35,786 bases of DNA from an uncultured Patescibacteria group bacterium (GTDB taxonomy: Bacteria; Patescibacteriota; JACMRA01), in NCBI GenBank assembly GCA_938041505.1, contig CALITC010000008.1:1-35786 (forward strand). The letters are read 5' to 3'. The stretch's first letter is position 1. Every line of letters starts with the position of its first letter. A program made the position numbers and the translations under genes. A model generated the notes under the pieces. It did not search any database and was not told the DNA's origin. It saw nothing but the letters and a program-made list of their open reading frames with translations. This document shows positions 11,395-35,271 of this stretch, piece by piece.

Positions 11395-14745
<3,351 letters not shown>

Positions 14746-33216: not shown

Positions 33217-33522
33217 CTATACCGACGAAGAATATGTCAAAAAGAAATATATATTAGCAACAAGTAATGAAAGAACAATCAAAGCTATAGCGATAACAAA
33301 GCCTGCAAAAAACTTGAATATTTGCTTATTTTTAGAGAATTTTAACCACGCCCCTACACTTAATAAAATTGTAATCAGGCAAATAAAAGGAAAGTAACCT
33401 GCAGAGCCGGATATTCTATCAATTAACAAACCCAACAATAAAGCACCAATCGAAATGAGCACTCCACTTAGTAGACTTGAGTCTTTTTGTTCGACTACTT
33501 TTGTTTGATTTTTCACTGCCAT
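33217..33522 (-). CDS. small membrane protein, three predicted helices
   Basis: The 101-aa product has a polar N-terminus (AVKNQTKVVEQKDSS) and three hydrophobic segments (LLSGVLISIGALLLGLLI, FPFICLITILLSVGAWL, FFAGFVIAIALIVLSLLVA). I recognise no family. It lies downstream of rnpB on the same strand, after the rnpB terminator. A TTGACA near 33556 overlaps that terminator but has no clear -10. Confidence 0.55.
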   Translation of the reverse strand: MAVKNQTKVVEQKDSSLLSGVLISIGALLLGLLIDRISGSAGYFPFICLITILLSVGAWLKFSKNKQIFKFFAGFVIAIALIVLSLLVANIYFFLTYSSSV

Positions 33523-33557
33523 ATCTCTTGAATTGAGAATAAATATTGATTGAATGT

Positions 33558-33581
33558 CAAAAAATTACCCCCGAAGGGGTA
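33558..33581 (-). terminator. rho-independent terminator of rnpB
   Basis: On the minus strand TACCCC-TTCG-GGGGTA (33566-33581) forms a perfect 6-bp stem with a UUCG loop, followed by ATTTTTTG. It starts directly after the RNase P RNA 3' end. Confidence 0.85.
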
Positions 33582-34127
33582 TGCTAATCCGTAAGCGGAA
33601 TTCTGTTTTAGATAGTAATTTGTCTAAGCTGCCTACCTAATTTGGCATTGCACTAGGAGGGGTTTGCCAAGAGGACGGTTGCCCGCCTTCCCTGATAGAA
33701 TTTTAATCTATCTTTTCACCAGTGACAGCAAGCTGCCAGTTTATTTTCTGTTGCACTTTTCAGCCTACAAGCCCTGAAAGCCTTCAGCTCCCTATGCTTA
33801 CGCACGCTTGTCTAACCAAGCTCCCACATCGTGTCGGCCTATCAAACTGCATGTTTTCGTTGCAGCTTAATCAGCTGCCACTGCAACATTCCGTTTGTAG
33901 CCCTCCTATTCCCCACAAATCAACAGATTTGCGTGGGCCCCATTATGGAAAAATTCTAAGGGGTCCCCAAGAAGCGAGAATGGTTCTTGGGGTGAGAGGG
34001 ATATCAAATGGAGTACTGTAGCCTCGGTCCTTAGGAACGAAGCGGAAGTATGCAGTTTGATAGACCGAGGCGCGAGTGTTCCGACTTTCCTCTACACTCG
34101 AAAGCATAGCTACTATCCGATTAGCCT
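33582..34127 (-). ncRNA. rnpB: RNase P RNA (M1 RNA), with a large insertion
   Basis: The RNA cleaves 5' leaders from pre-tRNAs with the RnpA protein. The minus strand shows the universal elements: GAGGAAAGTCGG near the 5' end (P4 5' strand), and AGTGCAACAGAAAATAAACTG. The L15 region follows (TTGGCAAACCCC ... GTGCAATGCCAAATTAGGTAGGC), then ACAGAATTCCGCTTAC (P4 3' strand). P1 is GCTAATC/GATTAGC at the ends. At ~546 nt it is longer than the usual 350-400 nt. The excess lies between the P4 5' strand and the P8-P9 region, where E. coli has ~55 nt and this gene ~330. Promoter and terminator fit the ends. Confidence 0.93.
33834..34068 (-). other. structured ~200-nt insertion in RNase P RNA on a 19-bp helix
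   Basis: Positions 34050-34068 and 33834-33852 are complementary over 19 bp with one G-U pair and enclose 197 nt. The enclosed RNA has its own strong hairpins: CCCCAAGAA/TTCTTGGGG, CCCACGCAAATC/GATTTGTGGG and GTTGCAG/CTGCAAC. A competing 9-bp pairing exists: GCCTCGGTC (34063-34071) with GACCGAGGC (34021-34029). It shares 34063-34068 with the 19-bp helix, so the two pairings exclude each other, at least in part. Confidence 0.65.
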
Positions 34128-34133
34128 GGCAAT

Positions 34134-34162
34134 ACAATAAATAAAGTTTTAACAATAGTCAA
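34134..34162 (-). promoter_or_regulatory. promoter of rnpB
   Basis: On the minus strand TTGACT (34157-34162) and TATTGT (34134-34139) are 17 nt apart. The predicted +1 at about 34127 agrees with the RNA 5' end derived from P1. It is back to back with the plus-strand promoter at 34164. Confidence 0.65.
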
Positions 34163-34163
34163 C

Positions 34164-34192
34164 TTTACAACAACAAACAATTTACCTAATAT
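34164..34192 (+). promoter_or_regulatory. near-leaderless promoter of the 356-aa exported protein gene
   Basis: TTTACA (34164-34169) and TAATAT (34187-34192) are spaced by 17 nt. Eight nt separate the -10 from the ATG at 34201, so the leader would be about 2 nt. No Shine-Dalgarno sequence is present. Confidence 0.5.
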
Positions 34193-34200
34193 TCCAACAT

Positions 34201-35271
34201 ATGAAAATCTCGACAAAAATGAGAGAACGAGACAAAATTTTAGTCGCTGTTCTTGGTACAGTCCTAATAATTGGCGGAGTTTTTTTCGCCAACACGGCAT
34301 ATGAAAATAGCCGCCAAACTCAACGAGTAGAAGATAATTTTCTCGCTCAAAGTAACAACACAAGTCAAGAGGAACTAAATCAGCTAGCTGCCAACTCAAA
34401 CCCAGTTGACACTGAAAAACTACTCTTCAGTGAAGTAGAACTTCTAGACTTACCAATCTACCCAGTAGCCTGGGTGGAAAGGAACTTTTCCCCAAATGAA
34501 CAAGCTAATCAATTTGTTTCAGGTGAAGTCTCAGACCCAGATCAAGACGGACTCACAAACAAAGAAGAGTATTTCTTCGGATCAAACCCAAAAGAATCTT
34601 TTTCATTATGCGTTTTTGAAGGAGATGATTGTAGCAAACCAAATGATGGTGATGCCGTTGAACAAGATATATCTCCTTTGACTGGGTTAGAACTAATAAC
34701 ACCGGGCAGGTTCACCGTAAAAAAACAAGACTTTGCCATTCTTAACAGAATAGAAGACTCTTTTGAAGTTGCTGCCAAAGAAGGTGTAGATTACCCTACT
34801 CTATATCAGCTATCAAGACAAATCGATCTATCAGATCAGTTAAATGCAATTGAGATATTAGAGCAAGAAGATAATCGTGATAACTTCATTAATTATACAA
34901 ATATCCGTATCAGTATAATTGAAGATTTTTCACAAGAAGATGAACTCACAAATTTCGTAGAAATATACGAGACTTCTCAAATCCCTGAACTCCAGAGTAC
35001 AAAGGATAAGTATATCGATTTAGAACAAAGAATGCTTAACACCTTCTCTCCGAGTCGATACGCCAAAGCTCACAGAGGCTATATTTTCCTTTTTCAAAAA
35101 TTCCAAGATCTCATAGACTTACGTATTGAAGGTATTGAGACAGAAACGAACAATACAGAGAGCTTTAAAGAAAGAAGTCAAAGTCAAGCCACAGAACTAG
35201 TCTGGGCGTTCAGAGCAGTCAATGAGTTAGAAGAAGCGGTTGCAGAATTCGAGGATATCGACGAAGAATAA
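34201..35271 (+). CDS. exported protein with a thrombospondin type 3-like calcium motif
   Basis: The 356-aa protein has one N-terminal hydrophobic helix (ILVAVLGTVLIIGGVFFA, about residues 13-30) with basic residues before it, so it is exported and probably anchored. Residues 111-130 read SDPDQDGLTNKEEYFFGSNP, the DxDxDGlt..EE..GtdP calcium-binding pattern common in extracellular proteins of small-genome bacteria. The rest, about 190-355, is helical and acidic. No enzyme motif is seen. It converges with the VOC-type gene, the stop codons being 4 nt apart. Confidence 0.75.
   Translation: MKISTKMRERDKILVAVLGTVLIIGGVFFANTAYENSRQTQRVEDNFLAQSNNTSQEELNQLAANSNPVDTEKLLFSEVELLDLPIYPVAWVERNFSPNEQANQFVSGEVSDPDQDGLTNKEEYFFGSNPKESFSLCVFEGDDCSKPNDGDAVEQDISPLTGLELITPGRFTVKKQDFAILNRIEDSFEVAAKEGVDYPTLYQLSRQIDLSDQLNAIEILEQEDNRDNFINYTNIRISIIEDFSQEDELTNFVEIYETSQIPELQSTKDKYIDLEQRMLNTFSPSRYAKAHRGYIFLFQKFQDLIDLRIEGIETETNNTESFKERSQSQATELVWAFRAVNELEEAVAEFEDIDEE

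Follow-up and report, generated by a model that had tools for sequence, protein, structure and literature searches.

Genomic repeats inside rnpB are known from cyanobacteria, where STRR repeats occur in the RNase P RNA genes as short tandem repeats in P12. Bacterial 23S rRNAs can contain intervening sequences, in which a long stem is inserted in an essential RNA. The RNase P RNAs of CPR bacteria are described as diverged, with extended or missing helices and with scores below model cut-offs (Lui, Nielsen and Arkin 2021, PMC8172020). Type B RNAs carry P5.1 (ES1.1) between P5 and P7, and in known RNase P this helix lies distal to the tRNA interface (PMC12974513). REPINs are inverted REP pairs, that is, inverted pairs of small palindromic repeats without genes of their own (PMC3116915).

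The RNase P RNA gene analyzed here resides on a single metagenome-type contig of 35.8 kb, the whole of which constitutes the window of this study. It belongs to a draft genome of 1.12 Mb in 26 contigs that is ~69% complete. In our reading, the small size of the genome, its diverged RNase P and the insertion in its 23S rRNA point to a CPR/Patescibacteria lineage. With the CPR RNAs of PMC8172020 it shares a CPR-type host, a score below the cut-off and an extended helix, but a repeat-derived insertion or a link to elements trailing tRNAs is not described there, as far as the available part of that paper goes. As in the cyanobacterial case, genomic repeats are found inside rnpB; here, however, they are two inverted, structured copies of ~110 nt in J5/7 instead of short tandem repeats. 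The insert site, flanked by P5 and P7 and away from the tRNA interface, is that of type B P5.1, whereas the segment itself is 235 nt long, branched, of dispersed-repeat origin and part of a type-A-like RNA; the likeness is topological.

Judged by its sequence, the minus strand from about 34126 to 33566 is an RNase P RNA gene whose core is type-A-like and intact. The strands of P1, P2, P4, P5 and P7 as well as CRII were located by sequence, and P4 forms by pairing of AAG-U-CGGAA with UUCCG-CUU. Features of class A RNAs are present, namely P4 and the conserved regions GAGGAAAGUC, ACAGAA...GCUUA and CRII. The elements of the gene are as follows:

34162-34134: promoter-like site just upstream of the RNase P RNA gene
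33566-34126, minus strand: RNase P RNA gene, approximate limits, from the P1 5' strand to the terminator
34078-34092, minus strand: P4 5' strand region GAGGAAAGTCGGAAC, located by sequence and near-invariant in aligned relatives
33739-33756, minus strand: CRII motif GTGCAACAGAAAATAAAC, located by sequence and conserved in relatives
33592-33606, minus strand: P4 3' strand region ACAGAATTCCGCTTA, located by sequence and by the RF00010 alignment
33581-33566: terminator downstream of the RNase P RNA gene

The Rfam class A model (RF00010) matches positions 33576-33841 (75.5 bits, E 6.7e-23), i.e., only the part that lies 3' of an insert, and the match could not be extended over this insert to the 5' part with P1-P4. 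The gathering score of 100 is not reached because the insert breaks the alignment and sets the 5' part apart from the matched part; relatives from the same order without the insert score 107-158 bits. A preliminary description of this DNA had stated that its proposal of a structured insertion would fall if a covariance-model alignment explained all 546 nt as known type A or B helices, and the class A model leaves the insert unexplained. When the insert is removed, the RNA aligns with those of four genomes of the same order, with conservation of the P4 strands, CRII and the P15 region.

The preliminary description had placed the insertion between the P4 5' strand and the P8-P9 region. This proved right and can be narrowed to J5/7, which in type B RNAs holds P5.1 and where the 235 nt lie here between the 5' strands of P5 (CACU, 34078-34075) and P7 (GGGAG, 33825-33821) and a helix is present between P5 and P7:

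33834-34068, minus strand: the J5/7 insert at the P5.1 site, composed of two copies of the trailer element introduced below, inverted and tail to tail, with matches to its covariance model R2 in both arms
34050-34068, minus strand: 5' strand of a 19-bp helix between the arms, formed by the outer end of arm 1, pairing computed
33834-33852, minus strand: 3' strand of the same helix, outer end of arm 2, pairing computed

Positions 34068-34050 pair with 33852-33834 in 19 bp, one of them G.U, and enclose exactly 197 nt, just as had been proposed. The 235-nt piece folds with -107.8 kcal/mol compared with a mean of -62.2 for 200 shuffled sequences (z = -9.35), none of which was as good. A second fold had also been suggested. 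The 9-bp pairing on which it depends, 34071-34063 with 34029-34021, does exist in the sequence, but a bistable switch is not supported: with the 9-bp pairing forced, the whole RNA folds with -200.4 instead of -212.5 kcal/mol, which is ~12 kcal/mol worse, and the computed equilibrium probability is ~1e-9 for the 9-bp pairing and ~0.91 for the 19-bp helix. We therefore rejected the switch; according to the folding model, the 9-bp pairing could form transiently during transcription at most.

The origin of the insert became apparent from comparison with the rest of the genome. A search with the insert revealed a 44-nt stretch, corresponding to what is termed hairpin B below, with 88-89% identity at two sites, each beside a tRNA-Glu gene, and a pattern search added a third site behind tRNA-Leu(CAA) that carries a compensatory change. 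The element common to these sites is ~110 nt long overall and consists of an irregular hairpin of ~72 nt (helix A), followed by CCCUC and a short hairpin B ending in GGGGACCCC. Helix A comprises three paired stretches of 8, 5 and 8 bp, the first two separated by a three-column segment and the last two by a second irregular segment. In an alignment of ten tRNA-linked copies, 97% of the pair cells are standard and 14 of the 23 pairs show two-sided changes; the covariation score for the same alignment is 0.536, as compared with 0.152 after shuffling and at most 0.075 in a slid register. U.C/C.U mismatches at columns 15/61, 17/59 and 23/53 are near-invariant and sit in the irregular segments around the covarying pairs. 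Covariation within the copies speaks for selection on the fold, either as RNA or as single-stranded DNA. Among Rfam families, nothing relevant was found around a tRNA-Leu copy, and RNase P alone was returned for 33400-34300.

A covariance model, R2, was built from the ten tRNA-linked copies alone, with the RNase P arms excluded. In the window it yielded exactly two matches, both of them arms of the RNase P insert, and this result did not change with all filters off. On the plus strand, arm 2 was matched at 33834-33905 with 38.6 bits (E 3.6e-8); the minus-strand match to arm 1, at 33996-34068, reached 34.1 bits (E 6.5e-7). The E-values are rough owing to a short calibration, while the bit scores, and the null from relatives given below, are independent of it. 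The insert thus consists of two inverted, tail-to-tail copies of the element:

33960-34068, minus strand: arm 1, helix A 33996-34068 and hairpin B 33960-33994, oriented as the copies behind tRNAs, R2 match
33834-33943, plus strand: arm 2, helix A 33834-33905 and hairpin B 33911-33941, in the opposite orientation, R2 match, its hairpin B being the one with 88-89% identity to the copies behind the two tRNA-Glu genes

Helix A of each arm is at the outside and the arm's own hairpin B points towards the center of the insert. Read from the alignments, the R2 pairs are mostly kept in either arm, and all three diagnostic U.C/C.U mismatches are present in both. Large helix extensions are known for RNase P RNAs of CPR bacteria (PMC8172020), and P5.1 might accordingly have been extended privately here, with an accidental likeness to the repeat. 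We regard this as extremely improbable and rejected it, because both arms are found with E<1e-6 by an independent model that was blind to them and because the 44 nt of hairpin B are 88-89% identical to two tRNA-linked copies. Very unlikely, too, is an artefact in which repeat copies were misjoined within the RNase P gene during assembly. The genome is a draft in 26 contigs and the insert is made of repeat, but near-identical shared stretches extend over only ~40 nt at <90% identity, too short and too diverged to mislead an assembler, the outer ends of the arms fit each other, and the core is continuous on either side. Of the natures that had been suggested for the insertion, namely an excised piece, a nested RNA or a replacement for a protein contact, the nested RNA comes nearest because each arm copies a structured element that is present elsewhere.

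The arms are not equally similar along their length. Their outer 19 nt are identical at 18 of 19 positions, while about half of the remainder is identical (46 of ~90), and at these outer ends neither arm is as close to any tRNA-linked copy as it is to the other arm. The 19-bp helix begins and finishes at the element boundaries.

In a survey covering ~98% of the genome, the element was found behind 13 of 35 tRNA genes, about a third, where it begins 0-4 nt past the tRNA 3' end. Reading of the 3' flanks revealed it at Arg(UCU), Met, Ile(UAU), Gly(UCC), Glu(UUC), Glu(CUC), Trp, Leu(CAA), Leu(UAG) and Ser(GGA); the model search added Gln(CUG), Ser(UGA) and, more weakly, Val(UAC). At Met, Ile, Gln and Trp, the intact element is followed downstream by truncated extra copies. 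They look as if they were older copies, resembling repeated insertion at the tRNA end. Apart from those in RNase P RNA, the sites include:

L066, L068, L069, L075, L078, L079, L080, L083, L085 and L090, on contigs C1, C3, C4, C6, C7 and C17: tRNA-linked trailer elements abutting CCA
C1:41509-41776: second tail-to-tail pair, between tRNA-Leu(UAG) and tRNA-Leu(GAG), outer ends unmatched
C5:40972: copy between protein genes
C9:24568 and C4:21527: weaker intergenic copies, the former between genes that we take to be secE and nusG

Nearly all element sites found are thus located behind tRNAs or within RNase P RNA, and the RNase P copies lie inside the ribozyme with no tRNA adjacent. Among the tRNA genes without the element, 14 of 22 have an ordinary terminator at the same position according to a crude test. 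As a separate observation, a hairpin GTATATCCCC..GGGGATATAC that lacks a T run directly follows tRNA-Thr UGU at C12:34081; it does not resemble the family in the window but rather one from another genome of the order, G001 (L193, L203). There, a two-hairpin element, GTATTTCGACAC..GTGTCGAAATAC followed by GGAAAT..ATTTC, starts at the ends of tRNA-Val(UAC), Lys(UUU) and Lys(CUU) and is analogous but apparently unrelated to the trailer element.

The distribution fits a small mobile element in so far as truncated downstream copies and intergenic copies exist. In being an inverted pair of small palindromic repeats without own genes, the insert resembles REPINs. It differs in that its repeats are longer, contain conserved internal mismatches and are linked to tRNA ends, and in that no Y1 transposase (Y1_Tnp/RAYT) was found in the genome at ~69% completeness. 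Mobilization of the RAYT/REPIN type was rejected on that latter ground. A search for a direct target-site duplication at the insert was negative as well. Alternatively, because element-free tRNA genes mostly carry an ordinary terminator at the same place, the element may be a trailer at the RNA level that forms or protects tRNA 3' ends. Extending this idea, the element could be functional as RNA in both settings, through a common factor or a 3'-end or processing pathway, and the insert would then be a handle that RNase P RNA shares with pre-tRNAs. Compensatory changes that keep the structure in copy after copy, the strict spacing from the tRNA 3' end, the near-restriction of sites to tRNAs and RNase P RNA and the terminators that replace the element elsewhere all speak for it. 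Still, we consider it rather unlikely: arm 2 is antisense within the RNase P transcript, the predicted fold pairs the arms with one another instead of forming two separate elements, and the copies at C5:40972 and, more weakly, at C9:24568 and C4:21527 lie between protein genes. Similarly doubtful is a more specific version, namely that the trailer is a module common to pre-tRNA 3' ends and RNase P RNA, a docking or processing handle that the ribozyme acquired when the pair moved into it.

The stem formed by the two arms also invites comparison with bacterial 23S rRNA intervening sequences, as in both cases a long stem is inserted in an essential RNA. RNase III or a similar enzyme might cut the stem, upon which the RNase P RNA would work as two base-paired pieces or the insert would be excised. 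A nuclease for double strands could plausibly accept the 19-bp closing helix and the additional pairing between the arms as a substrate, and the genome encodes RNase III (C4:61920-62564, 35% identity to the E. coli protein). Furthermore, a gene on the same contig likewise has an insertion:

11406-14732, minus strand: 23S rRNA gene, which relative to the Rfam model has an insertion of ~80 nt as well as other surplus stretches

The parallel drawn in the preliminary description between the two housekeeping RNAs stands in so far as the 23S insertion is present. It does not extend to a common element, because R2 has no match in the 23S rRNA gene even with the filters off; we rejected identity of the two, and the likeness of the RNase P insert to the intervening sequences is structural. 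The sequence contains no signature that would separate cutting or excision from retention, and the tRNA-linked copies illustrate that the element need not be inside a gene. Altogether, we judge cleavage at the insert to be unlikely, albeit worth considering.

At the position of the insert, five genomes of the order have only a short hairpin (~20-55 nt); the insert itself is absent from these relatives. Among loci of the phylum with both motifs, the distance from P4 to CRII is by far the longest in the window (341 nt); the next is 201 nt and ~71 nt is common. In other lineages, extensions sit at different positions of the RNA, in line with what PMC8172020 reports for CPR bacteria. When R2 was run on 55 further genomes of the phylum, five others of the same order included, none had a match at E<=0.1 per genome (~21 bits), and this level is far below the scores of the arms, 38.6 and 34.1 bits. 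A pattern for the apical hairpin yielded a single match in GTDB-based contigs, on an Oscillospiraceae contig where only 30 nt of the model were matched, and zero matches in viral contigs. On the basis of the 55 genomes and these wider pattern searches, the element has so far been found in one genome only. In the literature, we found no account of palindromic elements in bacterial RNase P RNA and none of structured elements behind tRNAs in these bacteria. For neither the trailer element nor an RNase P RNA bearing one did we find an earlier description. Independently, the RNase P RNA of genome G003 (L034) was noticed to be greatly extended, by roughly 150 nt. This extension is in the P12 region, not in J5/7, and a portion of it (around TTTTACAAGCGAAAAACTTGC) apparently recurs immediately downstream of the gene.

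We consider it likely that the insert, an inverted pair of a lineage-specific tRNA-trailer repeat, is retained at the P5.1 site as an expansion segment that the RNA tolerates. The pair would have entered an expandable hairpin in J5/7, arriving by insertion or duplication. By pairing of the outer 19 nt of the arms, the 235 nt would project as one branched stem from the P5/P7 junction, such that the catalytic core stays continuous and intact, and the pair would probably remain in the mature RNA rather than being removed. The outer ends may have been kept matched since the insert must close on itself and leave the P5/P7 junction compact. We infer this for RNase P because the ends are far more alike than the rest of the arms and because the pair between tRNA-Leu(UAG) and tRNA-Leu(GAG) lacks matched ends.

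As far as can be read from the genome, this RNase P RNA is one that has captured a structural element from the genes of its own substrates. The analysis brings to light that about a third of the tRNA genes are followed by a structured element with covarying pairs; no description of this element was found. It also allows an expansion segment of a universal ribozyme to be traced to its source, a module that is still recognizable at the 3' ends of the ribozyme's own substrate genes. The general notion that structured RNAs enlarge by taking up preformed modules can thereby be put to the test in a living lineage.
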